Assembly (NCBI RefSeq): GCF_016907795.1
Contig: NZ_JAFBCR010000001.1
Location: 2,728,001 to 2,792,000, forward strand
Direction: 5' to 3'
DNA from: Kocuria palustris
GTDB taxonomy: Bacteria; Actinomycetota; Actinomycetes; Actinomycetales; Micrococcaceae
Length of the DNA stretch: 64,000 bases
The notes under the pieces are model-generated. The model saw only the letters and a list, made by a program, of their open reading frames with translations, searched no databases and was not told where the DNA came from. Numbering within the stretch: the stretch's first letter is position 1; each line of letters starts with the position of its first letter. Positions 25,271-41,301 of this stretch are shown here, piece by piece. The position numbers were made by a program, and so were the translations under genes.

Positions 25271-26798
25271 GCGAAGCCTCCCCGCCCTCGTCATGGACGT
25301 GGACCGAGTTGATGGCCTCAGCTGGGTTGTTCTCTTGTGCTGGGACCGCGCTGGGTCCGTTGAAGTCCAAGCGATCCGCGCTGAGGGCATGTGCGAAGGC
25401 TTCGTCGTGGGTGACGGCGACGATGGCCCGGTCCAAGGCCAGTTCCTCGGCGAACATCTTCGTCAGCTCTCGCCAGGTCAGTGCGTCTTGGCCGAAGGTC
25501 GGTTCGTCGACGATCAAGACCTGCGGTGCGGCAGTGAGCATGCAGGCCACTGACAGTCTGCGTTTCTCGCCGCCGGAGAGCGTCTGCGGATGAGCCTGAG
25601 CCAGCCGGTCAAGCTTCAATCGTTCGAGGAGCTCGTCGACGCGCGCCTGGATCTGGGTCTTCGAGTACCCGGCTTGGCGGGGTCCGAATGCTAGTTCTTC
25701 GGCGACCGTGTGGCGAAGGAACTGGTGTTCTGCTTCTTGGAAGACCATTCCGATCCGTGTCACCAGTGAGCGGGACTTCCACTGTGAGGGCTGTGCGCAT
25801 TTCGGGCGGTGAGGGCCGGCGAGCAGGGACTGCGAAGCGGTCACTGTCCCCGCGTCTTCTGGTATCAGACCTGCCAGAGTGAGAGCCGTGGTGGATTTTC
25901 CGCTGCCGTTGGGGCCGGTGAGCGCGAGAGCCCGACCTGCTCGTACCTGCGCCGACACCGTGGCGACCGGCTCTGCGCCGGGACGAGCGACGGTGATGTC
26001 CTTAGCACAGAGCATCTCCTCGCCTCGCGTGGTCGGGGTGTAGGCGATTCCAGGGACAGCGCCGGGCAGCCAGAGTCCCGCGGCCTGGAGGCAGTCGCGT
26101 AGGCGCATGTCGCCGAGCACAGTGTTGGGATCGCCGTCGGCCAGCAGCCCTTCTGGACCCAACACGAGGATGCGATCAACATGGGGTGCCCAGATCTCCA
26201 AGCGGTGTTCGACGACCACCATGGTCGCCCCGGAGCGTGCTTGTGCTGCCAGGACGGCATCGCGGACCGAATGCACCGCATCGGGGTCGAGGTTGGCCGT
26301 GGGCTCGTCGAGAACGATCACTCCGGGTTCCATGGCCAAGACGCCGGCGATGGCCAGACGTTGCTTCTGCCCGCCAGACAGCGCCAGGGTCGGGTGGTCG
26401 GGCTCCACCGGCAGACCCACAGTCTCCAGTGCTGTGCGCACCCTTTCGGGGATCTTCTCGGCGGGCAGACCGAGGTTTTCCATACCGAAGGCGACGTCAT
26501 CACCGACTCTGGCGAGAATCACCTGGGAGTCGGGGTCCTGCAGGACGAGGCCCGCAGCCCCGCGTGAGGCTGCCGGTGGAGCGTCACCGACGAGCAGTGA
26601 CCCCGTGGCATCACCGGAGACGGCTGGCAGAACACCGGTGATGGCGTGGAGGAGCGTGGACTTTCCGACTCCGGAGGCACCGGCGAGGAGAACGCGCTGC
26701 CCAGCTTCGATGTGCAGATCGAGTCCGGAGAACGCTGGCCGGGTCCTGCCGGCATGAGTCCAGCCATAACCGCGGGCCGTAACGGAAAGGGGGGTCAT
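25263..26798 (-). CDS. ykoD: ECF transporter duplicated ATP-binding protein, YkoD-like
   Basis: A 511-residue protein with two fused ABC ATPase domains. First: Walker A GASGVGKST (about residue 42), signature LSGGQKQRLA, Walker B VIVLDEPT. Second: GPNGSGKST, LSGGEKRRLS and VLIVDEPT. It powers the transporter formed with the YkoC- and YkoE-like proteins. Start ATG 26798 has AAGGA eight bases before it. A much longer frame reaching 27509 is open but the added part overlaps the YkoE-like gene and is not coding. Confidence 0.9.
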   Translation of the reverse strand: MTPLSVTARGYGWTHAGRTRPAFSGLDLHIEAGQRVLLAGASGVGKSTLLHAITGVLPAVSGDATGSLLVGDAPPAASRGAAGLVLQDPDSQVILARVGDDVAFGMENLGLPAEKIPERVRTALETVGLPVEPDHPTLALSGGQKQRLAIAGVLAMEPGVIVLDEPTANLDPDAVHSVRDAVLAAQARSGATMVVVEHRLEIWAPHVDRILVLGPEGLLADGDPNTVLGDMRLRDCLQAAGLWLPGAVPGIAYTPTTRGEEMLCAKDITVARPGAEPVATVSAQVRAGRALALTGPNGSGKSTTALTLAGLIPEDAGTVTASQSLLAGPHRPKCAQPSQWKSRSLVTRIGMVFQEAEHQFLRHTVAEELAFGPRQAGYSKTQIQARVDELLERLKLDRLAQAHPQTLSGGEKRRLSVACMLTAAPQVLIVDEPTFGQDALTWRELTKMFAEELALDRAIVAVTHDEAFAHALSADRLDFNGPSAVPAQENNPAEAINSVHVHDEGGEASHV

Positions 26799-26944
26799 AC
26801 AGAAATCCTTGAATAGGAGCAGGGAGCGAATCGTGGGCGCGATTGGTGCCTCTGGGCTGGAGGCAAATGCGTCGAGCCCGTACCAGCGAGCGTCACGAGA
26901 CACTGAGACACCGGTCGCGCTGAATGTTTTCGCTCCGGTGATGG

Positions 26945-27568
26945 TCAGATGCGTTTGGCGGCCCGGCCCGCCGCGACCGAAGAGAGGGCGCCAGTTCTCA
27001 CGAGTGCGCGCGTGAGGAGCCAGGAGCCCAGGCCAGCGATCACGATGCAGCTGAGCACCGCTAGGAGGATGTAGACGGTCTGGGCCTGAGTGGTCCATGC
27101 CGCATAGGACCTCAGAATTCCGCCCACGCCCAGACCGACTCCGGCTAGTGCCCCCGAGAACAAGGCTGCACCGAGTCCGAAACGTCGGTAGCCCAGGAGC
27201 GCGAAGCCGGCCTCGGCTCCCAGGCCCTGAATGAGTCCTGAGATGATCACTGTCGCCCCGAAGTGCGAGCCCAGCACCGCCTCGGCAGTGGCGGCGATGA
27301 GCTCGCAGAACAGCGCAGCGCCTGGACGGCGGATGATGAGGCCAGCCAGGGGTCCGGCGAGTACCCAGACTCCGCCGAAGAGACCGATGAGCGGCGGATA
27401 GGCGTTCGTCCACAGCTGGAAAACGGCCCAGCTGGCAGCCCAGGCCCAAAACACCAAACCGACTGCGAAACCGAGGACGGCGGTGATGACGATATCGACA
27501 ACGCTCCACCGATGAGTCGATTGAGCCGACCCGGGTTGGTCACGAGTTGTGGGCGTACTGTTCTGCAT
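26945..27568 (-). CDS. ykoE: ECF transporter substrate-binding (S) protein, YkoE-like
   Basis: A 207-residue membrane protein with about six hydrophobic segments. The start of the YkoE family is recognisable in VVDIVITAVLGFAVGLVFW and the WTNAYPPLIGLFGGVW loop, followed by KPGAAL-like RRPGAALFCELIAATAE. YkoE proteins are predicted to bind thiamine or its pyrimidine moiety and are typically TPP-riboswitch controlled, as here. ATG 27568 has AGGAGG six bases upstream. It heads the transporter part of the operon; 171 bases separate it from the monooxygenase gene and 146 from ykoD. Confidence 0.87.
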   Translation of the reverse strand: MQNSTPTTRDQPGSAQSTHRWSVVDIVITAVLGFAVGLVFWAWAASWAVFQLWTNAYPPLIGLFGGVWVLAGPLAGLIIRRPGAALFCELIAATAEAVLGSHFGATVIISGLIQGLGAEAGFALLGYRRFGLGAALFSGALAGVGLGVGGILRSYAAWTTQAQTVYILLAVLSCIVIAGLGSWLLTRALVRTGALSSVAAGRAAKRI

Positions 27569-27739
27569 GGATAGCCTCCTGAAGGGCAATGTGAGTGGCT
27601 GGAGCCCTCGACCGCTCGCGGCATCTGCCGCTGCCGACATCAAAGGGTCACGATTTCCCAAGCCCGCTGCCCAGCGCGGGCCCCGGTGGTGCTGCGGATG
27701 GTGCACGTTGACACCGGAAGCAGCGTTGCTCTCGACGGG

Positions 27740-29077
27740 TCAGTGCTTGGGCCTTGTCAGACCCAGGTGCTCTCGTAACGTTGTGCCCTCGTACTGAGTC
27801 CGGAATCGTCCGCGGGCCTGCAGTTCGGGGATGACGTGGTGGACGAAGTCCTCGATCCCCTGCGGCAGGGACGGTGGCATGAGGTTGAAGCCATCCGCGC
27901 CGCCGGTGTCGAGCCAGAGTTCGATCTCATCGGCGATCGTCTCCGGGGCGCCGACCATCGTGCAGTGTCCGCCACCGGCGGCAAGCCGGCCCAGTAGCTC
28001 GCGCACGCTCGGCTGCTCGGTCTCGACGATGCGCAAGATTGTGGCGTATCGCCCCTTGGGGCCGGTGAAGGCCTCCAGCGGGGGTAGGGGCGGTACCGGG
28101 GCGTCGAGGTCCCAGGCGGATGCGTCCTGTCCGATGAAGGTGCTCAACTGCCGCAGAGAGCTCTCCGTCGGCAGGAGGACGTCGAGTTCTCGTTGCCGGG
28201 CCCGTGCCTCGTCCATGGTCGATCCGACATAGGCCACCAGGCCGGGCATGACCGCCACCGTGTCCGGGTCACGGCCGGCACCTGTGATCCGGCGACGCAC
28301 ATCACTGCGGTACTCCCGTCCCGCCTGCACGTCATAGGCCACGGCATAGATGGCCTCGGCCCGGCGGGCGGCCAAGTCCCGTCCCTGCTCGGAGGCACCG
28401 GCCTGGAACAGCACCGGGTGTCCTTGCGGCGGGCGGGGCACATTGAGCGGACCACGCACATCGAAGTGCTCACCGGAATGATTCAGCTCCACGAGTCGGG
28501 AGCCGTCCACGTACCGGCCTGGTTGCCCATCGGGTGCCTCTGCGCGTTCGATGAGGATGGAGTCCTCTGGCCACGAGTCCCATAGCCGCAGGACGACGTC
28601 GACGAACTCCTCGGCCCGGGCGTAGCGAGTCGCGTGATCGGGCATGCGGGGCATGCTGTGGTTCTGCGCCTCGGTATCGAACATTGAGGTCACCACGTTC
28701 CAGCCGATCCGCCCGCCCGAGATGTGATCGAGGCTCGCCAGCATCCGGGCGGCATGGAAAGGTGTGTAGAACGTGGCTGAGACCGTGCTGACCAGCCCGA
28801 TCCGCTCAGTGGCCTGAGCCAATGCCGCCAGGAGTGTCAGCGGCTCGAGGTGCCACCTGGGACCATCACCGGCCGTGGCCGGTTCCAGTGAGTGGCCATC
28901 GGCGAAGAACACCGCGTCCAGCAAGCCGCGCTCGGCGACTCGTGCCAGCTCCTGGTAGTAAGCCACCTCCGTGAGTCGTTCGACCGACGACTCCGGTGCC
29001 CGCCAGGCCGCACTGTGATGGCCAACACCGTGGATGAACAGATTGAAGTGGGCCTGCTTGACTTCCACGGTGCTCAC
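27740..29077 (-). CDS. FMN-dependent monooxygenase of the NtaA/SnaA/DszA type (luciferase-like)
   Basis: A 445-residue flavin monooxygenase-like protein with a (beta/alpha)8 luciferase fold. Family marks: start HFNLFIHGVGHHSAAW, RIGLVSTVSATFYTPFHAAR, the GGRIGWNVVTS segment and HPVLFQAGASEQGRDLAA. Relatives attack sulfur- or nitrogen-containing compounds using FMNH2 from a separate reductase. GTG 29077 overlaps the stop of the preceding SDR as GTGA. Being in a TPP-riboswitch operon with a vitamin transporter, it may process thiamine, thiazole or pyrimidine derivatives; that substrate is inferred. Confidence 0.85.
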   Translation of the reverse strand: MSTVEVKQAHFNLFIHGVGHHSAAWRAPESSVERLTEVAYYQELARVAERGLLDAVFFADGHSLEPATAGDGPRWHLEPLTLLAALAQATERIGLVSTVSATFYTPFHAARMLASLDHISGGRIGWNVVTSMFDTEAQNHSMPRMPDHATRYARAEEFVDVVLRLWDSWPEDSILIERAEAPDGQPGRYVDGSRLVELNHSGEHFDVRGPLNVPRPPQGHPVLFQAGASEQGRDLAARRAEAIYAVAYDVQAGREYRSDVRRRITGAGRDPDTVAVMPGLVAYVGSTMDEARARQRELDVLLPTESSLRQLSTFIGQDASAWDLDAPVPPLPPLEAFTGPKGRYATILRIVETEQPSVRELLGRLAAGGGHCTMVGAPETIADEIELWLDTGGADGFNLMPPSLPQGIEDFVHHVIPELQARGRFRTQYEGTTLREHLGLTRPKH

Positions 29078-29850
29078 CCCTTGACGAGCCCGCCGTCAAC
29101 GATGAGGTTCTGCCCCGTCACACCCCTGGCCCACGGGGAGGCGAAGAACACCACCGGGTCGGCGAGCTGTTCCGGCGTCGTCACCGCCCGCAGCGGGGTA
29201 CCTGCGGCGATGCCTTCGAAGACCGCCTCAGGCGTCGCAGACGAAGCGTCCGTGGTCTGCAGCAGGCCACCGGAGACCATGTTCACGGTGATGCCTTGCG
29301 GGCCGAGATCATCAGCGAAGGTCCGGGTCAGAGACAGCAGCGCGGCTTTCGCCGCGGTGTAGTCGTGGTAGGGAACGACCGGGTGCTGGAAAAGATTCGT
29401 ACCAATGTTGACGATCCGGCCGAAGCCTGCCTCGACCATGCCGGGAAGCGTTGCCTGGATGACGTTGAGAGGTCCCTGCACGGAACCGGTGAACTGTGCG
29501 GTGATCTCCTCGTAGGAGATCTGGTCCGCGTGGGAGCGGGCATCGCCGTTGAAGGAGAAGTCGGCCAGGGCGTTGTTGACGACCGTGGTGAACCGCCCGC
29601 CAAGGTGATCGGCTGCCTCAGCGACGAGCGCGTCGACCTGGGCACGGTCGCGGACATCAGCCCGGATCGCGATCGCCTGTCCAGGGTGGCCGGCGGCGAG
29701 GTCCTCCGCGGCCTCCTGGGATGCGTGGTAGTTGATCACCACCCGCGCACCCTGGGCCAGGAACGCGCGAGTGATCGTAGCTCCGAGTCCGCGGGCCCCT
29801 CCGGTGACGAGGACGATCTGCTCGGTGAGGGGGAGAATAGTGTGTGCCAT
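29074..29850 (-). CDS. SDR-family oxidoreductase (3-oxoacyl-ACP-reductase-like)
   Basis: 258 residues with the cofactor motif VTGGARGLGATI (about residue 16), VNNAL where most have NNAG, and the catalytic HDYTAAK with serine replaced in the strand by NIGTNLF (threonine). It is the first gene after the first TPP riboswitch. ATG 29850 follows GAGAGG. Coupled by a 4-base overlap to the monooxygenase, it may act on the same metabolite. The altered catalytic serine position is noteworthy but threonine can substitute. Confidence 0.82.
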   Translation of the reverse strand: MAHTILPLTEQIVLVTGGARGLGATITRAFLAQGARVVINYHASQEAAEDLAAGHPGQAIAIRADVRDRAQVDALVAEAADHLGGRFTTVVNNALADFSFNGDARSHADQISYEEITAQFTGSVQGPLNVIQATLPGMVEAGFGRIVNIGTNLFQHPVVPYHDYTAAKAALLSLTRTFADDLGPQGITVNMVSGGLLQTTDASSATPEAVFEGIAAGTPLRAVTTPEQLADPVVFFASPWARGVTGQNLIVDGGLVKG

Positions 29851-29959
29851 GTGTATGCCTCTCGATGTCGAGGCGAAGGCAACCCGTGCGCGCCAGAAGG
29901 GGGCGAAGCCCCTCTCATGGTGCGCCGACACCGCCAACGTTGTCGGCGGGTGCAAGTAC

Positions 29960-30062
29960 GGACATTCCCTTCGCCAGTGCTAACTGGATCAGGTTCAACG
30001 GGTGTCATCTCAGCCGACCGCGTCCCATGCTCGAAAGCTGGAACGGGCGGCACCCCGTGTCG
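29960..30062 (-). promoter_or_regulatory. TPP riboswitch (THI element) for the SDR - monooxygenase - YkoEDC operon
   Basis: Read on the minus strand: ACGGGGTGCC at the 5' side, the universal CTGAGATGACACCCGTTGAA, then CCTGATCCAGTTAGCACTGG and CGAAGGGAATGTC. These are the pyrimidine-binding CUGAGA and pyrophosphate-binding elements of the TPP aptamer. Downstream (about 29929-29952) a GC-rich inverted repeat, CACCGCC...GGCGGGTG, may be the expression platform. High TPP should switch the operon off. Confidence 0.95.
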
Positions 30063-30208
30063 CACGACCATCACATCACGGAAGCCACCCTCTCCACAAG
30101 TCGGTCTCGGCCCCCGGTTTGTTGTCACTGGAAGCAATGTCACAGAACACCGGAAATCAATCATGGCTATCCGACAATTGGGCATTCTGGCTTCTCGTTT
30201 TGCTTGTC

Positions 30209-30649
30209 TTATTTTGGACGCTCTTGTTGCTCGCGCTCCAGCTCGAGCGCGGTTTCGGCAATAGCGCGGACGTCGAATGTTTGCGCCACCGGTATCGCAT
30301 CCATTTCCTCGAGAGTGAACCACGCCGCCTCAAGCGCATCATCGCCCGAGACCGGTTCCCCCCGTTCCCATCGGCAGAGCACCGCGATCAGAACATAATG
30401 CAGATCGTGGTCGGCATCGATGACGTCGACAGCATCGAAGACATCACCGGGTGTGGCGTGCACTCCCGTTTCCTCGGCGAGTTCGCGCACGGTCGCGACG
30501 GTCAGGGTCTCACCGAGGTCGATCTTTCCCCCGGGGAATGCCCAGCGCCCAGCATCGGGCATATGGGCCCGACGGATGAGAAGGACTCGCCCTTCCCGGA
30601 CCACTGCCGCCAGCGTCGCCGGTTTCGGATAGGAACGGCCGCATGTCAT
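30209..30649 (-). CDS. Nudix hydrolase 2 of the TPP-regulated pyrimidine cluster
   Basis: A 146-residue Nudix protein with the full box GGKIDLGETLTVATVRELAEE (G-x5-E-x7-REL-x-EE). It is clearly a paralogue of the first-gene Nudix (33750-34223): shared PDAG-W-FPGGKI, VAVLCRW/IAVLCRW and GDDALEA segments. The sequence type is near MutT/NudG, enzymes that cleave (modified) cytidine or other nucleoside triphosphates. It starts directly after the methyltransferase stop, with no gap. Likely role: making CMP, cleaning 5-hydroxymethyl-CTP, or removing pyrophosphate from toxic thiamine analogues (inferred). Confidence 0.88.
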   Translation of the reverse strand: MTCGRSYPKPATLAAVVREGRVLLIRRAHMPDAGRWAFPGGKIDLGETLTVATVRELAEETGVHATPGDVFDAVDVIDADHDLHYVLIAVLCRWERGEPVSGDDALEAAWFTLEEMDAIPVAQTFDVRAIAETALELEREQQERPK

Positions 30650-31405
30650 CTACCCAGCCCCGATCGTGGACTCGGAGGCCGCCGCGAAGTGGGCTGTGAT
30701 CTGCATGAACGGTGGATGGTCGATGGGCGACTGCATGCCGACGTCCTCCACCGATTGTGCTCCGCGGTCGGTGACCTGGTCCACTGTGAAACCGGCCTCG
30801 TTCAGCACCGCCTCGTAGGTGCTGATGAACCAGTGCCGGTCGACAAGCTCGAGAACACCGGCGCCGGGGATCTGCAAGCTGACCCTGCGTTCGTCTCCGT
30901 CGCGGTAGCGTCTGCCGGGCTCGCCACTGCGGAAGGTCGGGAACGGTATTCCTGTGGCCGCCGGGTTGCTGTCGACGATGAAGAGCGTGCCGGTCGGCGT
31001 GAGCACTCGGGCGAGTTCACGGGCGATAGCTCTCAGTTCCTCGCGTGTGGGCACGTTGATGAACACGAAGCAGCACACGACCGCATCGAATGTGGCGTCA
31101 GGGTAGGGTACGTGGCCGCTGTCGATGGTGTGGAATCGCGCCGTCGGTTGCGGGGACTGCACCTGGGCGAGGGTGATCATGTCGGTGCTGATGTCGACAC
31201 CGACGACCTGCGCTGCGGCCTCGGCGTCGAGGAGGCGTCGTGAGACTTTTCCGCTGCCGCACCCATAATCGAGCACGATCGCCTCTCGGCCGCAGGCGGT
31301 TTGGAGATCGTTGACGAGCGGGGTGTAGGCCAGTCGGGTTTCGACATAGTCGTCGTAGGCAGCGAACCCTGCTGATACTGCCGGAGTCGTCCATGATGTC
31401 GTCAC
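30650..31405 (-). CDS. SAM-dependent methyltransferase, candidate hydroxymethylcytosine 2-O-methyltransferase
   Basis: 251 residues with class I methyltransferase motif I IVLDYGCGSGKVSRRLL (about 43-59), the acidic VVGVDISTDM loop and motif IV FDAVVCCFVFINVP. GTG 31405 overlaps the stop of the thymidylate-synthase-like gene as GTGA, with GAGGGCGG upstream. In bacimethrin biosynthesis a methyltransferase adds the 2-methoxy group to hydroxymethylcytosine, turning it into a close mimic of thiamine's pyrimidine. The fold and context support that role; the exact substrate is inferred. Confidence 0.85.
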   Translation of the reverse strand: MTTSWTTPAVSAGFAAYDDYVETRLAYTPLVNDLQTACGREAIVLDYGCGSGKVSRRLLDAEAAAQVVGVDISTDMITLAQVQSPQPTARFHTIDSGHVPYPDATFDAVVCCFVFINVPTREELRAIARELARVLTPTGTLFIVDSNPAATGIPFPTFRSGEPGRRYRDGDERRVSLQIPGAGVLELVDRHWFISTYEAVLNEAGFTVDQVTDRGAQSVEDVGMQSPIDHPPFMQITAHFAAASESTIGAG

Positions 31406-32409
31406 TGCCGCACCGCCCTCACGCTCGCGTTTTCGATGCTGGGCCATCGATTCACGACCAGCTCCCGGTGGAGGGGATGAAGGTCGCCGATCATCGATGG
31501 GTCGACTGGTCGCTGACATTGGAGTTGCCGGTGGATCCAGAACAGGCGGACAATGTCGACCCACGCTTCTGGAAGGTCAACGGTCGCCAGTGCGCGGCCT
31601 GGGAGCCTGTCTGCACGGATCGACTGCTCCAAGTCCAAGACCTGGTGCACCTGGTCCAGGCTCGCTCCCGAGGGTAGCCGTGGAAGTGTGCTGGGTTCCT
31701 CCACGATCGTCTGCTCATCGCCATCGAGGAGGCTGTCCACCTTGGCGAGGTCTTTTTCGTAGATGTGGATCGAGCCGACGTTGTGGATGTACACGCCCGG
31801 AGTCAGTCCCAGCATCGAGGCGAGGAATTCTTGGACGAACGTGAAGGAGAACGTGTCGTTGAGCAATCCCATGTACGCGTCGTTGGCGCGCATGAACGCG
31901 ACCATGTGCAAACGGTCGTCACGGCGCAACAGCTGGAGAGCTAGCGTGCAGGAGACATCGATGTTGCGGCGGTAGATGTCTTCGGAGTGGTCGAAGATCT
32001 GCAGGACGGCACGTTTGCTCGCAGGGTCATCGTCGTTGAGGATGTTCACGATTCGTTCGATCGCGGTCTCGCCGCCGACGTCCCTGAGCAGTTTGGGACC
32101 ATACCCCGTGCCCGGCAGGCTGAGACCGTCAGGACTGCACCGGCTCATCGAGGGCGCGTAGGTGCGGATGAAGTCGAGGTCGTTCTTCCCCGAGAGGTAC
32201 CACAGTGCTTCGGCGTAGTTGAAGATGATGTTCTGCCGACGCGACCGCGCCAAGCAATATCGCCGGGCGGGGTTGGTCAGGCGCGCGGTGAAGCCGATGA
32301 TTTCGCGTTCGTCCTGCCCACGGGGACTGTTCTGGTATTCGAACCCGGTGTAGACCTGTCGCAGTGAATCCAGGTAGAGCGTGTGGAGGTCGGGATACTC
32401 AGGCTTCAC
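31402..32409 (-). CDS. Thymidylate-synthase-like CMP 5-hydroxymethylase (MilA/bacimethrin type)
   Basis: 335 residues of thymidylate-synthase fold, not a housekeeping ThyA. The catalytic cysteine is Cys154 in DVSCTLALQLL, where ThyA has PPCH; the nucleotide-binding strand reads FMRANDAYMGLLNDTFSFT instead of RSxDxxLGxPFN. Such changes are known from MilA-type enzymes that use methylene-tetrahydrofolate and water to convert CMP to 5-hydroxymethyl-CMP. GTG 32409 is preceded by GGAGGAG and overlaps the preceding gene by 11 bases. A C-terminal extension of about 100 residues after IYEKD lacks a clear match. Confidence 0.85.
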   Translation of the reverse strand: MKPEYPDLHTLYLDSLRQVYTGFEYQNSPRGQDEREIIGFTARLTNPARRYCLARSRRQNIIFNYAEALWYLSGKNDLDFIRTYAPSMSRCSPDGLSLPGTGYGPKLLRDVGGETAIERIVNILNDDDPASKRAVLQIFDHSEDIYRRNIDVSCTLALQLLRRDDRLHMVAFMRANDAYMGLLNDTFSFTFVQEFLASMLGLTPGVYIHNVGSIHIYEKDLAKVDSLLDGDEQTIVEEPSTLPRLPSGASLDQVHQVLDLEQSIRADRLPGRALATVDLPEAWVDIVRLFWIHRQLQCQRPVDPSMIGDLHPLHRELVVNRWPSIENASVRAVRQ

Positions 32410-32869
32410 TGACGGCTCCTCCCTGCACGCGCTCGATCGCAGCGAGGATGCGTGGCGCGGTGGGCTGCTCGGGATCGATGATGATCTTCTCAACGTCGGC
32501 GACCGCTGGGAGGCCCCGGACGAGGAACGCGTACTCAGCTCCCTCTTCGAGGAGCAAGACGACGGGCTTCTTCCAGGCTGAGGCCCACCCGATCTCGATG
32601 TGCGTGCCCGGGGACGCGGGTGCGCCGGGGAACGCGACGAAGACGTCACAGGCGGCGATCTCCGTGTAGTCGATGATTGTGCACTCGCTGGGTTCCATGA
32701 ACTCACGACCCCAGCCCTCTCTGCGGTGGGCGCAGTGCACATCCCACCCCTGGCCTTCGAAGAAGTCGATGATCGAGGTGTACTTGTCGATCTCGGCATC
32801 GCCCATCACATGGGTGTCAGCATCGACGAGAGCTTTGAACGGGCCGGCGAGAAACATCTTTCGCGTCAT
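32399..32869 (-). CDS. Nucleoside 2-deoxyribosyltransferase-like CMP/hydroxymethyl-CMP N-glycosidase (MilB type)
   Basis: 156 residues of the deoxyribosyltransferase fold. Family marks are the N-terminal KMFLAGPF strand, CAHRREGWGREFMEP, the D-segment AACDVFVAFPG and the catalytic glutamate (Glu92) in SPGTHIEIGWA. MilB-like members hydrolyse (hydroxymethyl-)CMP to free (hydroxymethyl)cytosine and ribose 5-phosphate, as needed after the MilA-type step. ATG 32869 was chosen because AAAGGAG precedes it. It is separated by 74 bases from thiD, the only visible gap in the operon. Confidence 0.85.
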   Translation of the reverse strand: MTRKMFLAGPFKALVDADTHVMGDAEIDKYTSIIDFFEGQGWDVHCAHRREGWGREFMEPSECTIIDYTEIAACDVFVAFPGAPASPGTHIEIGWASAWKKPVVLLLEEGAEYAFLVRGLPAVADVEKIIIDPEQPTAPRILAAIERVQGGAVSEA

Positions 32870-32943
32870 AGTCACGGCTCCTTTCATGAGTCGATGTGGT
32901 TGGCCCCCGATCGCGCGGAACGAGAAGGGGTTGTTCTGCATCC

Positions 32944-33753
32944 CTACCCGCGCGGCCAGAACTGGTGGAAATGGTGCAAAGGACCATGACCTTGGCCGAC
33001 GTTGAGGCGGTCGCTGGCAACCAGAGCGTCTTGCAGGTAGGTCTTCGCCTGGTCCACACTTTCGGGCACCGAGTGGCCGGGCAACAGCGCAGTGATTGCC
33101 GACGACAAGGTGCAACCGGTGCCGTGGTCGTTGAGGGTCTCGACCCGGGGAGACGAGTAGGTGGAGACGCCGTCGGGGCCGGCAAGGTAGTCGACACTGA
33201 CCGTCTCGCTCGTGAGGTGCCCGCCTTTGAGCAAAGCCCACTGACAGCTCAGTCCACGCAGCTGGGTGGCCTGGTCCTCCATCTGCCCCAGATTAGTGAC
33301 ATCCTCGGTATCGAGGAGCACGGCGGCTTCGGGAAGATTCGGGGTGATGACCGTGGCCAGCGGCACGAGGGTGTCCCGGATGGCAGCCACCGCATCGTCG
33401 TCTAACAGCCTGTCGCCACTCTTGGCGACCATCACCGGATCCAGGACCACGGTCTCAGCTTCGTGGTGGTGCAGGCGCTCGGCGATGACCTCGGCGATGG
33501 CGGCGTTGGCGACCATACCGATCTTCACCGCGTCGACACGCACATCGTCGAACACTGCATCGATCTGCTCACCAACGAATGACGGATCAAGGGGCACGAA
33601 CGAGCGCACACCGCGCGTGTTCTGCGCCACGACCGCAGTGATCGCGGCCATGCCGTAGGCGCCCATCGCTGAGAAGGCTTTGAGATCGGCGTGGATGCCT
33701 GCCCCACCGGTGGGGTCGGTTCCCGCGATGGACAGGACGTTCTTGACCGTCAT
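32944..33753 (-). CDS. thiD: Hydroxymethylpyrimidine / phosphomethylpyrimidine kinase
   Basis: A 269-residue ribokinase-fold enzyme that phosphorylates HMP twice to HMP-PP. Visible: SIAGTDPTGGAGIHADLKAF near the N-terminus, TAVVAQNTRGV, KIGMVAN, VLDPVMVAKSG and the anion hole DHGTGCTLSSAI with the flap cysteine. The first motif has threonine where most ThiDs have serine. ATG 33753 overlaps the preceding Nudix stop as ATGA. In a cluster that should make methoxy-HMP this kinase would activate it for entry into the thiamine pathway. Confidence 0.93.
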   Translation of the reverse strand: MTVKNVLSIAGTDPTGGAGIHADLKAFSAMGAYGMAAITAVVAQNTRGVRSFVPLDPSFVGEQIDAVFDDVRVDAVKIGMVANAAIAEVIAERLHHHEAETVVLDPVMVAKSGDRLLDDDAVAAIRDTLVPLATVITPNLPEAAVLLDTEDVTNLGQMEDQATQLRGLSCQWALLKGGHLTSETVSVDYLAGPDGVSTYSSPRVETLNDHGTGCTLSSAITALLPGHSVPESVDQAKTYLQDALVASDRLNVGQGHGPLHHFHQFWPRG

Positions 33754-34223
33754 GCGCACACTTCCTTCTGCTGCCGTGTGGCGGCGTACCGAGCGACCTC
33801 GGCGACATCCTTGCTCAGGGTCAGCCGGGCTTCGTCGACTTCGTCGAGGGCGAACCAGCGTGCTTCGAGGGCATCGTCGCCAGCGTGGGGTTGCCCCGAG
33901 CGCCACCGGCAGAGCACGGCGACGAGCACGAAATGACTGACTAATGGTCTGTTCTCGTCGCGGCTGAACGCGTCAAGGCAGGTCAAGACACCGGTGGCCT
34001 CACTGATGATGCTGGTTTCTTCACTGAGTTCGCGTTCGGCGGCTTGGGCGATTGTTTCTCCGAATTCGATCTTCCCGCCCGGGAATCCCCAGAATCCTGC
34101 ATCGGGAGGGTTCGCACGTCGCGCCAAGAGGACATGGTCGTCTTTGATGAGGACAGAAATGACCGCGACCCTTGGGTGCGCGTCAAATGAGGAAGTGTCA
34201 GGAACGACAACAGCATGAGACAC
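33750..34223 (-). CDS. Nudix hydrolase 1 of the TPP-regulated pyrimidine cluster
   Basis: 157 residues with an intact Nudix box GGKIEFGETIAQAAERELSEE. First gene after the second TPP riboswitch. GTG 34223 follows GGAGG, and that Shine-Dalgarno sequence lies in a small hairpin, so translation is probably the regulated step. Close paralogue of the last gene of the operon (30209-30649), with the pair bracketing the four biosynthetic genes. NudG/MutT-like. Candidate substrates: CTP or 5-hydroxymethyl-CTP, or pyrophosphates of toxic pyrimidine/thiamine analogues (inferred). Confidence 0.88.
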   Translation of the reverse strand: MSHAVVVPDTSSFDAHPRVAVISVLIKDDHVLLARRANPPDAGFWGFPGGKIEFGETIAQAAERELSEETSIISEATGVLTCLDAFSRDENRPLVSHFVLVAVLCRWRSGQPHAGDDALEARWFALDEVDEARLTLSKDVAEVARYAATRQQKEVCA

Positions 34224-34228
34224 TGTGA

Positions 34229-34244
34229 CCTCCTAGCGTGGAGG
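34229..34244 (-). promoter_or_regulatory. Shine-Dalgarno-sequestering hairpin of the second riboswitch
   Basis: On the minus strand CCTCC - ACGCTA - GGAGG pairs the ribosome-binding site of the first Nudix gene. It lies directly between the TPP aptamer and GTG 34223, consistent with TPP repressing translation initiation. Confidence 0.75.
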
Positions 34245-34267
34245 CCAGCGAAGGAAAGAAGCCCTGC

Positions 34268-34371
34268 TAGACCAGTCCCTTCGCCGGCATGGTCCGGATC
34301 AGGTTCTAGGGTCACCACGCTGACAACGTCCAGTGGTATCTCAGCCCCTTGACGGGACACCCCTCGGTACG
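34268..34371 (-). promoter_or_regulatory. TPP riboswitch for the bacimethrin-like operon
   Basis: On the minus strand: ACCGAGGGGTGTCCCGTC, GGGGCTGAGATACCACTGG, then GACCCTAGAACCTGATCCGG and CGGCGAAGGGACTGGT, all the landmarks of the TPP aptamer, with a variable P3 insert. Controls the Nudix - thiD - glycosidase - TS-like - methyltransferase - Nudix genes. Low TPP should turn them on. Confidence 0.95.
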
Positions 34372-34579
34372 ACCCGAATCTACCAGAACGCCGTCACAGA
34401 CACACCCTGCGCGGATAGACTGCCGCCGGATACTGGTGTTGGGATCGCCTGCGCACCCATCCAGTGACGCGACTGCGCCTGATGGAGCAAGTCCCCGCCC
34501 CACGGGTGGATCCACTGGTAGGTGTCGGTACTGGACGGTAGACCGGAAGGTGTCGGTCGAGCATGAAGGAGGACTGGTC

Positions 34580-34789
34580 ATGGCGACGACGAAGGCCTTG
34601 TCACAGGCCGAGATCGACCGGCTCGAAGCGCAGGTCACTGCTGGCCAGCGGATGGCTGGCGGAGAGGAGTCCGACGCCGACCGCGCCCTGGATCGCAAGG
34701 TGCTGGCCGGTGAGATGCCCGGCGATGACGCCATCGCCATCGCCGTCCGGCTGGCGCAGATCGACGCGAAGTACGGCATCACCCGGTAG
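34580..34789 (+). CDS. VbhA-like antitoxin (copy 1)
   Basis: 69 residues, MATTKALSQAEIDRLEAQV onward, with the region QRMAGGEESDADRALDRKVL in the style of VbhA antitoxins, whose inhibitory helix blocks the ATP site of Fic toxins. AAGGAGG sits 8 bases before ATG 34580. It precedes a broken Fic gene by 39 bases and is a paralogue of the antitoxin at 40238-40441; the upstream regions are also similar. Confidence 0.75.
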   Translation: MATTKALSQAEIDRLEAQVTAGQRMAGGEESDADRALDRKVLAGEMPGDDAIAIAVRLAQIDAKYGITR

Positions 34790-34828
34790 CACGCCGCAGG
34801 CCAGGGTCGCGGGTGGGGGTGGACGGTG

Positions 34829-35612
34829 ATGCCGGATCATTGCACAGATCCCGGCACCGAGGTGCTCGTCAACATCCCCGGCTACACCGATCCGGCAGCG
34901 TGGAAGGAAGCCGAGACCGCCGTCACCGGCCTTCGTGCCCGCGAGCTGGCCCGCACCCCGATCATCGGCGACTTTGACCTGCCACCTTTGCAGGCTATCC
35001 ACGCCGCCTGGTCGAGGGCTTCTACACCTGGGGCGGCCGCCTGCGGGATACGAACACCGGCCCCGGTGGGACCGGCATCGCGCACTGTCTGCCCGAGTTC
35101 ATCCCCGACGAGGCCGTCCGCGTGTTCGGTGTCCTCGCGAAGATGGATCACCTTCGCGGTCGGGACCGGGCCGGGCTCTCCGAGGGCCTGGCCTGGGCGT
35201 GGGGAGAGACGACAGCGATCCGCCCCTTCCGTGAGTGAACACGAGGAGCCAGTTCACGTTGTTCAACCAGCTCGCGGTCGAGGCCGGATGGGTCCTCGAC
35301 TGGAACCAGATCGACCCGCACGTCTTCGCCCACGCCCGCACCGTCGCGATCTACCGCGATCCCGACGGCCTCGACGCATTGCTCTACCCGGCGCTGGTTC
35401 CGGCCGCTTCCAGCCCTGAGCGTAAGGTCGCCGAGCGGATGGAACAAGTCGTGGCGAAGTTCGCCCGGCCCCGCCCTCCACGTAAGATGGATGCCCTGGA
35501 TCACGAGCTGCACGCGGCGTTGCAGCGGCGAGCATACCGCCTCGCCCCTGACCCGCCGTTCGGTCCGCCACACCAGGGGCCGGGGCTACACGACCGAGGG
35601 GTCGGGCTATGA
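34829..35612 (+). pseudogene. Fic-domain toxin, frameshifted (copy 1)
   Basis: Matches the intact copy at 40478-41260 along its length but carries at least two one-base deletions: CACGCC-GCCTGGTC (about 35008) where copy 2 has an extra C, and CGTGA-GTGAAC (about 35234) where copy 2 reads CGTGATGTGAAC, giving an early TGA. The Fic motif would read RPFRE...NTRSQF, so the catalytic His is also replaced by Arg. The toxin is inactive although its antitoxin gene is intact. Confidence 0.85.
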
Positions 35613-35686
35613 ACACTCCACGTATCGCCACCGCCGCGCGGAATGAGACCAGCGTGCGGGCGGCCCGGTCACACTGGGTCGAGGAG

Positions 35687-35714
35687 AACGGGCCCGCAAA
35701 ATGTGCGAACCCCT
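35687..35714. repeat. Decayed palindrome after Fic copy 1
   Basis: AACGGGCCCGCAAAATGTGC then GAACCCCT is an imperfect version of the first palindrome that follows Fic copy 2 (41302-41330). It indicates that the two toxin modules were duplicated together with at least one palindrome. The rest of 35613-35862 holds no recognisable gene. Confidence 0.6.
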
Positions 35715-35862
35715 CGATGCCCTCGGAGCACCGTACGAACGGAACAAAACCGCAGGAACAGTTAAACGGTCGAAGAAGCTACACGCTCAACGCCCAGCAC
35801 CACCCGAACTGGTTAGCAAACCGAGCCGTGACGGAGAGGCAGAAACATGGACGGTACGCGAT

Positions 35863-38800
35863 CTAGAGGCCGCGTGCTGGCCGGTCTCTGCGGGGAGCAC
35901 TCCGGGTGAGGTACTGCTCGTCGACGAGTTGCCGTTGGCGTTCCCCGAGTGCTGTCGCGCGGGCTTCGGTGGCGGCGCGTTTGATCTCGATGAGATCCAC
36001 TGCCTGATCCCGTGGCGGGCGACGGAGCTCGGCGGCCTCAGCCCGCGCTTCCTCTGTCGACGCCCTCCACTTGGCCGCCTGCCTCCGGGGGCTGGTGCGT
36101 AAGTATCGGTCGGGGTCACGGCGGACGTTGTCCGCCCCGTGGAGCCGCGCCAGGAGTGCGAGTCGGTCGCGGCGATGACGCTCCTGCAACCCGGTACGCG
36201 CCTGCCGCGCCGCGACTACGGCCTCGTCGGCTTGCACCACTTCGGGAGCGTTCTCGGCTTGCTGGGCGGCGACACGGCCCGCCCACTCATGGAGGTCATC
36301 CGCGGGCCGCGGGAGAGTGCCCCACTCCGAGGACAGGCGACCGCGCAAGGCCTGTGTGTGCTCGTGGGCGGTGTCGTGCTCGCGTTGCGCACGCCGCTTG
36401 CCGAACCATCCCGCCGTTGCCAGTCGTCCGGCCGCCTGGGCTTCCTCGGCCAAGGCGGCGAGGTAGTCCCGGCCTTCGGCTTCGGCGCGTGTCTCCAGGG
36501 GCGCGAAGGTCTCGGCCCGCATCGTCGCGGCGTGCTCCTCCGCGGCAGTGAGGGCGGTGGTGCTCTCGTCCGTCTCCTCCCGATGCCGGGCCGATAGCGC
36601 GTCGAGCTGTTCGCCGACGTTCTCCCACCAGGTGGCCCGCTGCTTCGCCTTCTCGATCAGATCGTCGAGGCATGCCAGCTCTTCTGTGACCATCGCGACG
36701 GGACCGTCCTTGACCAACCCTTGGATGGCTTCGTGGGCGCGGGTGGTGGCGTCGGTCAGTCCGCGGTCGGCGCGGTCGCGGCCCATCGCCTCGACGAACT
36801 GCGCTCTCGCATTCGTGAGGTCCGCAGCGATGACGTGGAGCTCGTTACGGCCGCTGCCGCGGGTCAGTCCGACGTAGACGGCTGCCGCGTCGAGGGCGTC
36901 GGAGAGCACCGTGTGCGCCGTGTTCACGGTGGCACCCTGGACGCCGTAGGCGGTGGAAGCGTAGGCCAGGTGCACGTGCTCGGCCACATAGTCGGCCGGG
37001 AGCGCGACCGTGAGGTTGTGCCTCCGGTTGGTGCCGGTCTCGATGGCATGAACGGTGCCGTCCTCGCCGATGCGTTGGACGGTGAAGGTCTGCCGGTTCG
37101 CTACCCGCAGCTCGGCATCGTTCTGCCGCGCCTGCACCAGGTCACCCGCCCCGATGGGCAGACCAGCAGAGTCGGTCACGGTGCGCCCGTCATCGACTTC
37201 GCCCTGTTCGACGCGGAGGGTGCGGGTGCGCTCGTTCAACTCGGCGGCTTCGTCGTTGGTCGCCACGGTCACCGCATCCTCGGGGACCGTGTGCTCGGCG
37301 ATGTGCTCACGCATGGCGTCGTCGTCGGCATGCAACCGGACCAGGCCCATTGCGTGCAACTGGTCGAAGATCGCCGCAGGGTTCTTCCCCTCCCGCATGC
37401 GCAACGTCAGCGCCGCATACTGCTCGTCGTCGAATCGGTGCAGCTCGGACATGTCCACGGTTGCCCCGCGAATGTGGGCGGCCATGTCGAGCACACCGCC
37501 GCGCCCGACCGCGGGGAGTTGGGCGCGGTCGCCGACCAGCGCCACCGAGGCCCTCGCTTCGCGGATCACGGTGAGAAGGGCGAGGGCGGTGTCCTGGTCG
37601 AGCATCCCGGCCTCGTCCACGATCACCCGCTCACCCCGCACCAACCGCGCCTCACGCGGCGGACCCGTGTAGACGCGGCCCGTGGTGGGGTCCGTGTCGC
37701 CGCGCTTGAGGCGGGTCCAGACGCCGTCGTCGTTCCACCGGAACCCGTGCGCGTACACGAGCGCGGCTACACTGTCGGCGGGTACTTTGAGGGTTTCTGC
37801 GGCGACTTGGGCGGCCTTCTTCGTCGGGGTGACCACCCGCGCCGACCGGCCCGCGTGGTCGAGGGCTTCGATGGCGGTGGCGAGCATGGTGGTCTTCCCC
37901 GACCCTGCCGCTCCCTCGACCACCACGAGCGGGTCACGGGAGGCGACCGAGGCAGCGGCGTCGGTCTGTCCGGCGTCGAGGCCGTGCTCGGCGGCGAGCG
38001 TGCTGAGGTCCGGGCGGCGAGGCTCCCGGTTCGGGGCCTGTGCTTCGAGCTGGTCCCGCAACTCGCTTTCGGCCTGCACCACCCGCAGGCTGGTGAGGTG
38101 TGCAACATACTCGGGTTGCACCGCGCCGGGCGGCAGCACGGAGAAGCAATCCTTAGCTGCGAGATCGGTGGCGAGTTGCACGAACTCGCGCAACTCGTCA
38201 GGGGTGGCTTGCACGCCGTGCTCGGTGGTGATGCGAGTGGCGTGCTCGCGCAGCGTGTGCACCGTCCATGTCGATCCACCCGCCGCGCTACGGTCGAGGG
38301 CACGGTTCGCGACCTCCTGCACGCTCAGGTCATCGACGGACACCCGTGCCGGTGCCGTGGCGCGGGTGAGGGTGTCGGGGTCGTAGCCGGCCTCGACCAG
38401 CTCGGCCCGCCAGGCGTGTTCGTCGCCGAGGTCGGCGGGCTTCTTGTTCGGCCGCTCATGCGCCCACGCCCTGTGCAGCAGCCGCGCCCGCACGACCGGG
38501 CCGGACTCCTCACCGGGATGGGCGTGCTCCCACTCGGCCTCCAACTGCTTCAGGTTGCGTTCGACCTGATGCGCACGCTTGCTCATCATCGGATTGAACT
38601 GCTCCAACTCGGCAACCTCCCCGGTGACCGGGTCGAGGGTGAGCCCGTTCGCGTCCAGGGTTGCAGCCAATTGCGGGTTCGCCGCGATGACAGCAGTGCC
38701 GAGTGCACGGATCGCGCCTTGCTGCTTGAACAGGACCGCAGTATCGAGGGCACGCCACTTGCCCGCGGCGGGCACGCGGGTGCCAATCTGGAAGTGCACG

Positions 38801-39312
38801 TGCCGGTGCGGATCACCGGCACGACTGGTCTTGTGCACGACGGCGACGGTCTGCAACGACTCCGCCGGGATGATCTCCTGCTGCCCGCGCGGGCCGACAC
38901 GGGTGTAGGAGTGCTGTGCCAGCCACTGTCGGATCTCCGAGACCGCGTCCTGTTGGGCTTGGTCGAGGGCGTCGGAGACCTCCGGGTGCAGGGCGGCGGC
39001 GATCGACAGCGACTTCGGGGTGTTGACGACCATCTCCGCGAACCGCGGGGAGCCCTTCCGGACCTCGCCCGCCTCGCGCGGGATGCCCATCTGCTCCCCG
39101 GTCAGCGGATGGGTCCAGTCGACCCAGCCCGCGTACTGCTCCGGGTCCAGGCCGGTGTTCGCGATGACCTCACCGGCGGCGTTGGTGATGGTGAAGTCCG
39201 CCAGCGCCGTGCCGCCTTCGAGGTAGTAGTCATCCACGGTCGACCGGTCGGATTCGAGGTACCGGCGGGCGGCGGTGCCGGGTCCGCGGAACAGGGTCAC
39301 GCCGCCTTTCAT
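35863..39312 (-). CDS. MobF-family conjugative relaxase/helicase (TraA-like)
   Basis: A roughly 1149-residue relaxase that nicks DNA at oriT and unwinds it for transfer. The N-terminal relaxase domain (TrwC type) has the metal-binding histidine triad DPHRHVHFQIG near residue 170. A RecD-like superfamily 1 helicase follows with Walker A VVEGAAGSGKTT (about 465), VIVDEAGMLD and VALVGDRAQLPAVGRGG, and the late motif YASTAYGVQGAT. The C-terminal 250 residues are charged coiled coil. ATG 39312 or GTG 39333 may be used; AGGAAGG lies between. No coupling protein or type IV secretion genes are seen, so the element is probably mobilizable, not self-transmissible. Confidence 0.92.
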   Translation of the reverse strand: MKGGVTLFRGPGTAARRYLESDRSTVDDYYLEGGTALADFTITNAAGEVIANTGLDPEQYAGWVDWTHPLTGEQMGIPREAGEVRKGSPRFAEMVVNTPKSLSIAAALHPEVSDALDQAQQDAVSEIRQWLAQHSYTRVGPRGQQEIIPAESLQTVAVVHKTSRAGDPHRHVHFQIGTRVPAAGKWRALDTAVLFKQQGAIRALGTAVIAANPQLAATLDANGLTLDPVTGEVAELEQFNPMMSKRAHQVERNLKQLEAEWEHAHPGEESGPVVRARLLHRAWAHERPNKKPADLGDEHAWRAELVEAGYDPDTLTRATAPARVSVDDLSVQEVANRALDRSAAGGSTWTVHTLREHATRITTEHGVQATPDELREFVQLATDLAAKDCFSVLPPGAVQPEYVAHLTSLRVVQAESELRDQLEAQAPNREPRRPDLSTLAAEHGLDAGQTDAAASVASRDPLVVVEGAAGSGKTTMLATAIEALDHAGRSARVVTPTKKAAQVAAETLKVPADSVAALVYAHGFRWNDDGVWTRLKRGDTDPTTGRVYTGPPREARLVRGERVIVDEAGMLDQDTALALLTVIREARASVALVGDRAQLPAVGRGGVLDMAAHIRGATVDMSELHRFDDEQYAALTLRMREGKNPAAIFDQLHAMGLVRLHADDDAMREHIAEHTVPEDAVTVATNDEAAELNERTRTLRVEQGEVDDGRTVTDSAGLPIGAGDLVQARQNDAELRVANRQTFTVQRIGEDGTVHAIETGTNRRHNLTVALPADYVAEHVHLAYASTAYGVQGATVNTAHTVLSDALDAAAVYVGLTRGSGRNELHVIAADLTNARAQFVEAMGRDRADRGLTDATTRAHEAIQGLVKDGPVAMVTEELACLDDLIEKAKQRATWWENVGEQLDALSARHREETDESTTALTAAEEHAATMRAETFAPLETRAEAEGRDYLAALAEEAQAAGRLATAGWFGKRRAQREHDTAHEHTQALRGRLSSEWGTLPRPADDLHEWAGRVAAQQAENAPEVVQADEAVVAARQARTGLQERHRRDRLALLARLHGADNVRRDPDRYLRTSPRRQAAKWRASTEEARAEAAELRRPPRDQAVDLIEIKRAATEARATALGERQRQLVDEQYLTRSAPRRDRPARGL

Positions 39313-39323
39313 GCCGGTCACCG

Positions 39324-39353
39324 CCTTCCTCACGAGTCGCTTCGTGAGGAAGG
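39324..39353. other. Perfect inverted repeat at the relaxase start, candidate oriT or leader hairpin
   Basis: CCTTCCTCACGA (39324-39335) and TCGTGAGGAAGG (39342-39353) form a 12-bp perfect stem with a six-base loop. It covers the relaxase ribosome-binding site. Relaxase genes often lie beside their oriT, which typically includes such repeats, but a translational control hairpin is equally possible. Confidence 0.5.
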
Positions 39354-39443
39354 TGCGCGGGTACTACCGCAGGTAACATGCGTCCATTCGTCTTGACAGC
39401 AGGAGAGACCGGGTCAGCGCGGAGAAGCGCGTCAGGGGTGCGG

Positions 39444-39806: not shown

Positions 39807-39821
39807 GGCGGGGTCGTCTGG

Positions 39822-40010
39822 TCATGATGGGTCGGGCTCTACGCGCGCCGGTCGAACGGGTGGCGGCAGGTTAGGAAGCCACCGGTCGAGTGCGCGGATT
39901 CCGGGCCGGGGCGCATACCAGCGGCGAGCCTGCGGGTCCCAGCGGGCACCGGCGGCCTTGGCCTGGTCCTTCTCACGGTAGGCGACGTCGAGCCAGATGC
40001 GCTGCACCAT
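39822..40010 (-). CDS. DUF5710-like small protein
   Basis: 62 residues. The motif RIWLDVAYREKDQAKAAGAR followed by WDPQARRWYAP is the recognisable core of DUF5710, a short domain often found next to or within mobilization and DNA-processing proteins of plasmids. It is the first gene of the presumed relaxase operon and is divergent from the second antitoxin gene; the 227 bases between hold their promoters. Confidence 0.75.
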   Translation of the reverse strand: MVQRIWLDVAYREKDQAKAAGARWDPQARRWYAPRPGIRALDRWLPNLPPPVRPARVEPDPS

Positions 40011-40441: not shown

Positions 40442-40477
40442 CTGCTGGTCCTGTATGCCTGGTTGCGGGGGCCGGTG

Positions 40478-41260: not shown

Positions 41261-41301
41261 GACAGCGGAGAGCCGATGGAGTGCTCCGTAACGGGGCCGG
41301 G

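Follow-up and report, generated by a model that had tools for sequence, protein, structure and literature searches.

A probable bacimethrin-type operon with Nudix genes and a TPP riboswitch on a mobile element of Kocuria palustris

What would a bacterium that looks like a thiamin salvager do with a mobile element on which a compact set of pyrimidine-handling genes stands behind a thiamin pyrophosphate (TPP) riboswitch? The question is raised by a 64-kb stretch of the Kocuria palustris genome (contig NZ_JAFBCR010000001.1, positions 2,728,001 to 2,792,000; hereafter the window, with positions counted from its first letter), in which six intact, closely spaced genes form a minus-strand operon, 34223-30209. 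From the riboswitch onwards they encode a Nudix hydrolase, the hydroxymethylpyrimidine (HMP) kinase ThiD, a MilB-like N-glycosidase, a MilA-like thymidylate synthase (TS) homologue, an S-adenosylmethionine (SAM) methyltransferase and a second Nudix hydrolase (Table 1). Sequence, reading frames and Pfam, NCBIfam and Rfam searches bear out the order, strand and packing given by a first-pass annotation, which had worked from the letters alone and had proposed a bacimethrin-like thiamin antivitamin as the product. The ThiD and Nudix 1 genes overlap by 4 bases, the MilA-like and MilB-like genes overlap as well, and the methyltransferase gene begins with a GTG at 31405 that overlaps the MilA-like stop codon (start codon picked by eye). 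We consider it probable that this is a transferable, TPP-controlled operon for bacimethrin (2-methoxy-HMP) whose Nudix enzymes protect the maker, and we find in this the best explanation of the locus. The antivitamin proposal gains support from the kinship and diagnostic residues of the MilA/MilB pair, the kinship of the methyltransferase, the presence of ThiD, and the TPP riboswitches that precede many clusters of this kind.

The TS-like protein finds MilA entries first among Protein Data Bank (PDB) sequences (5jnh, E 3e-80), followed by an ordinary thymidylate synthase at 1.6e-10. In MilA, ribose specificity has been assigned to Lys133 and Ala176 and recognition of cytosine to Asp186 (PMC5175136). 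The corresponding residues in the window protein are K132, A175 and D185, the combination that marks a MilA-type 5-hydroxymethylase of cytidine monophosphate (CMP); R, S and N stand in these columns in the host's ThyA, which was aligned as a control. Both proteins keep Glu, Cys, His and Tyr from among the residues for catalysis and ribose binding. In the specificity columns the active site differs from that of ThyA, as had been claimed. K, A and D are present in 36 of 38 methyltransferase-linked TS rows, five of the 38 being near-copies of the window; the other two rows are partial frames (L080 with K, A and a gap, L077 with a gap, G and D).

TS-like hydroxymethylases are also known from phages (PMC5175136), and here the gene lies on a mobile element, so that the MilA/MilB pair might be imagined to modify or degrade phage or element nucleotides as part of a DNA-modification or defence set. 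We find this scarcely credible: the TS residues are of the ribose-preferring type, the gene context is that of thiamin, and a scan of viral contigs with the glycosidase as a single-sequence query, able to reach close relatives only, gave no relative. A viral origin was rejected on the same scan.

The glycosidase scores 27.2 bits against its Pfam profile, slightly under the cut-off of 28.8. Its PDB matches are MilB (E 5e-45) and, nearly equal, the CMP glycosidase BlsM (5e-44). What decides between the two types, at the level of sequence, would be the motif F-L-(G/A)-(G/A)-P-F-(R/K)-X-L-(L/V/T), whose Arg/Lys has been tied to 5-hydroxymethyl-CMP (hmCMP; PMC4081090). The window protein carries FLAGPFKALV, with Lys at the position of MilB Arg23, and the comparison with MilB that had been proposed for this gene therefore comes out in favour of a MilB-type enzyme. 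Lys occupies this position in all 38 methyltransferase-linked loci (the strict motif fits 36) and in 5 of 8 loci that have a TS and no methyltransferase; of the 13 loci where neither gene lies within 4 kb, one is unreadable and the remaining 12 differ from Lys at this position.

The methyltransferase belongs to one family that, by alignment and tree, recurs in MilA/MilB clusters of Actinomycetota, Pseudomonadota and Bacillota, those of Paenibacillus included. It is 43% identical to an enzyme of Streptomyces microflavus and 35% identical to one of Priestia megaterium, both encoded beside MilA/MilB homologues. In the methyltransferase tree (39 rows) a branch supported at 100/100 separates Bacillota from the rest, and Pseudoalteromonas sp. 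SMS1 joins the window lineage as its sister (100/98), as it does in the TS tree (48 rows; 100/100). Methylation at O2 of 5-hydroxymethylcytosine is inferred by analogy with the pathway described for Clostridium botulinum (PMC12345177, PMC5627462), since the PDB matches are generic class I enzymes only, the best being a glucose O-methyltransferase (1e-9).

MilA and MilB are mildiomycin enzymes, and the first two steps and the diagnostic residues kept in the window are those described for that pathway (PMC5175136, PMC4081090). A mildiomycin-type hydroxymethylcytosine nucleoside antibiotic, with ThiD and the Nudix enzymes as unrelated passengers, is nevertheless a quite improbable product. Pfam and NCBIfam searches revealed no sugar-tailoring or peptide-coupling gene among the operon genes, such as a nucleoside cluster would have; unlike in mildiomycin, the pair is accompanied by a methyltransferase and ThiD, which together with the riboswitch indicate thiamin. 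The sister set in Pseudoalteromonas sp. SMS1 (L058, 4080-11169) points the same way: it has Nudix, glycosidase, TS and methyltransferase genes like the window, and unlike the window it is attached to the end of a thiD-thiO-thiG-thiE-thiF operon (ThiO-like and ThiF-like scores slightly under NCBIfam cut-offs) in a genome that bears ThiC. This strain might make methoxythiamin directly.

Control of the bacimethrin-type operon by TPP is suggested by its leader. Between the aptamer and the start codon, a hairpin GGCCUCC/GGAGGUC contains the Nudix 1 Shine-Dalgarno sequence; the fold of 34262-34205 reaches -16.9 kcal/mol, with 7 of 200 shuffles equally good. When the complete leader is folded, GCGAAGG of the aptamer pairs with CCUUCGC upstream of the hairpin (17 of 200 shuffles equally good). 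The segments of both the hairpin and the alternative pairing are kept in four aligned related leaders, with one G-C changed to G-U in three of them. Because the conserved aptamer sequence GCGAAGG takes part in the alternative pairing, the model predicts that TPP binding would free the hairpin and shut the Nudix 1 gene.

By Rfam, TPP riboswitches occur in all six loci of the mobile lineage (L052-L057) and, among 24 Bacillota loci with the methyltransferase, immediately 5′ of the glycosidase gene in 15 and before thiD in one more (L088); L071, L072, L073 and L089 gave no match, and L080 was left out of the scan. No match at gathering score was obtained in the Paenibacillus loci L059, L060, L066 and L068; a putative TPP riboswitch has been published for Paenibacillus operons (PMC5627462). 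TPP-controlled glycosidase-TS-methyltransferase clusters were seen in five Leuconostoc species (L099, L101-L104) with no ThiC match.

The host itself gave no ThiC match. It has no full ThiG; two matches slightly above the Pfam cut-off cover 58 and 37 of 247 positions and are taken to be other barrel proteins. It does have a TPP-controlled thiM-thiE-thiD run (ThiM read by eye), a further ThiD-like gene of full length and a partial match to ThiD, and it looks like a thiamin salvager. A host with ThiE and ThiD and without ThiC, and a riboswitch that should switch genes on at TPP shortage, would also suit a vitamin pathway, in which the operon yields a usable, ThiC-independent HMP surrogate for hosts that make no HMP. 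We judge this very improbable: the 2-methoxy product has been described as yielding an inhibitory cofactor (PMC5627462), and the operon shows no tie to loss of ThiC. Of 31 carriers that have the methyltransferase and do not belong to the mobile lineage, 18 possess ThiC, Pseudoalteromonas included (assembly completeness not stated). Within the mobile lineage, L052 and L053 are without ThiC; L097, where the TS has been lost, is with it. A comparison of 25 genomes set 6 other actinobacterial carriers against a hand-picked selection of 19 non-carriers from the same two genera and found ThiC in 3 of the 6 and 5 of the 19, 14 being without it. Since many carriers have ThiC and non-carriers lack it as often, the operon was rejected as a ThiC substitute.

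We next turn to the Nudix enzymes and ThiD, on which the proposed self-protection and precursor supply depend. E. coli NudJ is reported to confer bacimethrin resistance and to cleave methoxy-HMP-PP and methoxy-TPP (PMC5158307), and a protective role has already been proposed for YzgD in Paenibacillus (PMC5627462). NudJ-like hydrolysis is the putative function that kinship and gene context suggest for the window enzymes, which are 44% identical to each other. One may instead suppose nucleotide housekeeping, the Nudix enzymes cleaving CDP and CTP, or their hydroxymethyl forms, so as to supply the MilA-like enzyme with CMP or to bar the modified base from RNA, with bacimethrin still the product. 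This view draws on the promiscuity of the YzgD Nudix domain towards nucleoside diphosphate derivatives (PMC5627462), on NCBIfam matches to MutT-like and nucleotide families (all under cut-offs), and on the PDB ranking for Nudix 1, where generic MutT-like proteins come at the top and NudJ is only 28th (E 2.5e-6). We think it unlikely, though it deserves some weight. For both enzymes, the nearest relatives found (59 and 57% identical) come from Nudix-ThiD units under TPP control that show no MilA or MilB gene in the stretch shown, and the ancestral tie of these enzymes for this reason looks to be with thiamin and not with CMP.

These units are found on plasmids of two marine Roseobacteraceae, Sulfitobacter pTHAF37_e and Marinovum pMaD1 (L143 5993-7399 and L144 5989-7391), where riboswitch, Nudix and thiD genes follow each other as in the window. 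Unlike the window operon they lie beside thiC and thiE, with thiM annotated in Sulfitobacter, and have no bacimethrin gene within the stretch shown. The Sulfitobacter ThiD is 65% identical to that of the window and its Nudix protein 59% identical to Nudix 1 and 57% to Nudix 2; the values for Marinovum are 63, 51 and 48%, its Nudix gene being annotated short. The window ThiD is 47% identical to the host's own (L111). Such a unit is possibly one of thiamin proofreading or antivitamin resistance. The window operon therefore looks assembled, judging from these kinships, from a riboswitch-Nudix-ThiD unit, a bacimethrin core and a second Nudix gene, and the former half may have had a proteobacterial source. 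ThiD had been supposed to activate the product. It is present, but an activating role is not required, because a close homologue stands in a thiamin unit devoid of bacimethrin genes.

The distribution of such clusters was followed by a census. Genome contigs were searched with an alignment of the glycosidase, and to the 58 loci obtained three plasmid loci were added; L052 was kept as representative of the mobile lineage and L053-L057 were dropped. The limit of 4 kb for neighbours and the thresholds were ours. The collapsed census contains 34 loci with TS and methyltransferase, 8 with TS and no methyltransferase (all with ThiD) and 14 without TS. A Nudix and/or HAD gene is found no farther than 4 kb away in 20 of the 34, none of the 8 and one of the 14 (Fisher p 4e-5, shared ancestry ignored); this last locus is L097, which has kept its methyltransferase. 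The HAD and Nudix queries hit a single shared frame in 15 Bacillota loci, a fusion confirmed by Pfam in Priestia (one checked), to whose Nudix domain Nudix 1 is 31% identical (E 8e-13). L089 has a stand-alone Nudix gene on the opposite strand. HAD matches without Nudix adjoin the glycosidase in Lentzea and Actinokineospora (L070, L075, L077).

The claim that the Nudix genes make the architecture distinct stands for the two stand-alone genes, and has to be given up in its broader form: HAD-Nudix fusions occur in many Bacillota clusters, and thiaminase operons that include a YzgD Nudix domain and a putative TPP riboswitch have already been published for Paenibacillus (PMC5627462). What is new here is the pair of stand-alone Nudix genes, the presence of Nudix/HAD genes near the methyltransferase in three phyla, and the kinship to thiamin units. 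A search of 70 loci, some of them overlapping stretches of one genome, found thiaminase I in 7; it is not a general feature. It is missing from the 64-kb window too, as had been stated (tblastn with the Paenibacillus apiarius enzyme, best E 3.2).

Several observations weigh against the bacimethrin interpretation. The score of BlsM is nearly equal to that of MilB. Fourteen of the 34 loci with TS and methyltransferase have no Nudix or HAD gene within 4 kb, and the association counts disregard common descent. None of the eight other actinobacterial loci tested, nor Pseudoalteromonas, has a TPP riboswitch match in Rfam. The pairing of the window lineage with Pseudoalteromonas links long branches in both trees, and for the methyltransferase tree the program gave a long-branch warning. 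The element proteins scanned, a subset of the frames, include none that we could recognise as a dedicated exporter. One carrier, B. iodinum ATCC 49514 (L057/L048), has a broken copy, in which the TS match stops at residue 216 and neither the methyltransferase nor the second Nudix gene was found within 4 kb.

That the operon lies on a mobile element, as first proposed, is confirmed, and the ends of the element are now defined. The segment 23869-47287 matches the genome of Brevibacterium sp. CS2 (G301; NZ_CP040020.1), a member of a different family from the host, at 99.9% identity over 11.1 kb and 99.8% over 12.3 kb, with an interruption of about 1.3 kb in CS2. There, the element ends have a common 13-base repeat, and the flanks, read by eye, join up into a single ABC ATPase gene; in the host the flanks match an ISL3 transposase, the left over positions 41-98 and the right over 105-240. 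The element thus appears to interrupt an ISL3 transposase gene in one genome and an ABC ATPase gene in the other. Defined ends, an integrase, a relaxase and different insertion sites in two genomes characterise it as an integrative mobilizable element. Its excision and transfer between families are suggested, indirectly, because copies in different families are 99.8-99.9% identical. The cassette has a G+C content of 62.7%; it is 70.6% in the left flank of the element and 67.6% in the right.

Sequences of about 90% identity were found in B. aurantiacum ATCC 9175, Brevibacterium sp. S22 and G341 (window 28994-34921), in Brachybacterium alimentarium 908_11 (30001-34921, on a 5.6-kb contig) and in B. 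iodinum ATCC 49514 (31771-34921); a Brevibacterium metagenome-assembled genome (MAG; L053) has all six genes. ATCC 9175, S22 and G341 also have a related relaxase, and ATCC 9175, G341 and ATCC 49514 a related integrase. Together with the host this makes eight carriers, the broken copy included; a sample of 396 genomes from the order contained 7 carriers. S22 and 908.11 are cheese-rind isolates (PMC6467879, PMC5526665). The S22 plasmid pBS22, reported to hold YkoCDE genes (PMC6467879), was rejected as the carrier contig because it measures 22.4 kb at 1763x coverage, versus 23,730 bases at 141 for that contig. A literature search linking bacimethrin with Brevibacterium found no publication.

The proposed course of events is as follows. 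At low TPP the leader is predicted to expose the first ribosome site. The MilA-like enzyme would hydroxymethylate CMP, the MilB-like enzyme would release the base as 5-hydroxymethylcytosine, and the methyltransferase would O-methylate this to 2-methoxy-HMP, bacimethrin, which as 2'-methoxy-TPP could poison neighbours. The two Nudix enzymes may shield the maker by cleaving methoxy-HMP-PP and methoxy-TPP, and ThiD and a co-carried importer may sustain the supply of the true vitamin precursor. Nudix self-protection would be a concrete, testable mechanism tied to thiamin quality control.

The logic from CMP through hmCMP and 5-hydroxymethylcytosine to bacimethrin is that of the C. botulinum bcm cluster, compared here by its description (PMC5627462, PMC12345177), which also has a glycosyltransferase, a TS-like enzyme, a methyltransferase and a pyrimidine kinase; it has thiaminase I and an ABC transporter besides, and no Nudix gene is listed in these descriptions. 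The thiaminase I/bacimethrin operon of P. thiaminolyticus, P. apiarius and P. dendritiformis, as published (PMC5627462), shares with the window a putative TPP riboswitch, thiD, glycosidase, TS-like, methyltransferase and Nudix (YzgD) genes. The window differs in lacking thiaminase I, thiM and thiE, in having two stand-alone Nudix genes instead of a HAD-Nudix fusion, in its gene order, and in its place on an actinobacterial mobile element. Microcystis is a reported maker of bacimethrin and methoxythiamin, and its cyanobacterial cluster, likewise compared by description, is said there to have little homology to the bacterial enzymes (PMC12345177).

Table 1. Features of the window that belong to the operon, its leader, the companion operon and the mobile element.
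Feature	Positions	Strand	Basis and remarks
Mobile element, 23.4 kb	23869..47287		99.8-99.9% identity to G301; flanks differ on both sides
CbiQ-like ECF transmembrane protein	24410..25390	-	PF02361 2.9e-22
Double ECF ATPase	25263..26948	-	PF00005 in two stretches, 7e-52
PF09819 ECF component	26945..27568	-	PF09819 7e-37; start by eye
LLM flavin-dependent monooxygenase, NtaA/DmoA family	27740..29077	-	TIGR03860 522 bits, cut-off 280
SDR oxidoreductase, first companion gene	29074..29850	-	PF13561 2.8e-49; start by eye
Second TPP riboswitch, companion operon	29948..30067	-	RF00059 59.6 bits, gathering 54.3
Nudix hydrolase 2	30209..30649	-	146 aa; PF00293 1.7e-20
SAM methyltransferase METHYLTRANSFERASE	30650..31405	-	PF13649 4e-21; proposed 2-O-methylation of 5-hydroxymethylcytosine
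MilA-like CMP 5-hydroxymethylase	31402..32409	-	335 aa; MilA 5jnh E 3e-80; thymidylate synthase Pfam 1.3e-14
MilB-like hydroxymethyl-CMP N-glycosidase	32399..32869	-	156 aa; MilB 4jem E 5e-45; FLAGPFKALV motif
ThiD, HMP/HMP-P kinase	32944..33753	-	269 aa; TIGR00097 303 bits, cut-off 205
Nudix hydrolase 1	33750..34223	-	157 aa; PF00293 4e-24; proposed self-protection
Predicted expression platform	34224..34258	-	hairpin GGCCUCC/GGAGGUC, RNA fold
TPP riboswitch aptamer, six-gene operon	34258..34374	-	RF00059 58.8 bits, gathering 54.3
TrwC/TraA-type relaxase-helicase	35863..39333	-	PF08751 2e-41, PF13604 2e-42
Large serine integrase, element right end	45692..47242	-	PF07508 3e-14, PF00239 2e-12

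The element carries a companion operon (29850 to 24410) headed by a second TPP riboswitch (30067-29948), which the first-pass annotation did not contain. It encodes a short-chain dehydrogenase/reductase (SDR), a luciferase-like monooxygenase (LLM) and the components of an energy-coupling factor (ECF) importer, among them a YkoE-like PF09819 protein. In a sample of 297 genomes, 9 others have a full-length relative of the LLM, at 61-68% identity, and G294 has a partial match; an SDR gene adjoins in 7 of the 9 and a TPP riboswitch is present in 6. An SDR-LLM operon under TPP control thus recurs in actinobacteria (window 24410-30067; L123-L126, L129, L130) and is a separate thiamin-regulated module that is here co-carried. 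The LLM and the importer are common to the host and, among the carriers as seen, only to CS2. The SDR is found in the host, CS2, S22, G341, ATCC 9175 and the MAG; the broken stretch of B. iodinum did not show it, and the 908_11 contig is too short to be informative.

Taken jointly, the two operons may turn the element into a transferable vitamin B1 kit of weapon and supply: shortage of TPP would call up an antivitamin against scavengers of HMP and thiamin, a Nudix shield derived from a TPP-controlled Nudix-ThiD "proofreading" unit of the kind seen in marine Proteobacteria, and extra uptake through the second TPP operon. We offer this joint reading tentatively, as a possibility that falls somewhat short of an even chance. 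Should it be true, hosts unable to make the pyrimidine of B1 would carry a factory for its poison. A thiamin antivitamin pathway would then reside on a mobile element that is near-identical in two families and has relatives in food-associated actinobacteria, and gene transfer could spread vitamin competition in communities such as cheese rinds. Genomes could be screened by the signature of glycosidase, MilA-like TS and methyltransferase, often behind a TPP riboswitch.

Some further sequences came up in the course of the analysis. A MilA-like TS, a glycosidase and ThiD without methyltransferase or Nudix occur in Nocardia, Saccharopolyspora, Streptoalloteichus and others (L087, L090, L100, L105, L106, L108, L109, L039); L039 has P450 and LLM genes downstream, and these loci perhaps make a different pyrimidine product. 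TS-like genes of 29-37% identity in the host's order (L014-L017, in G105, G021, G008 and G289) have scores between MilA-like and ThyA-like, and 13 plasmid records of Apilactobacillus kunkeei (OX335326 and others) hold a TS-like gene that is more remote, with 25% identity in the rows shown. Inside the element, a diverged direct repeat (35004-35561 and 40654-41212, 80-84%) has its second copy in a gene of the Fic/DOC family (40463-41260).

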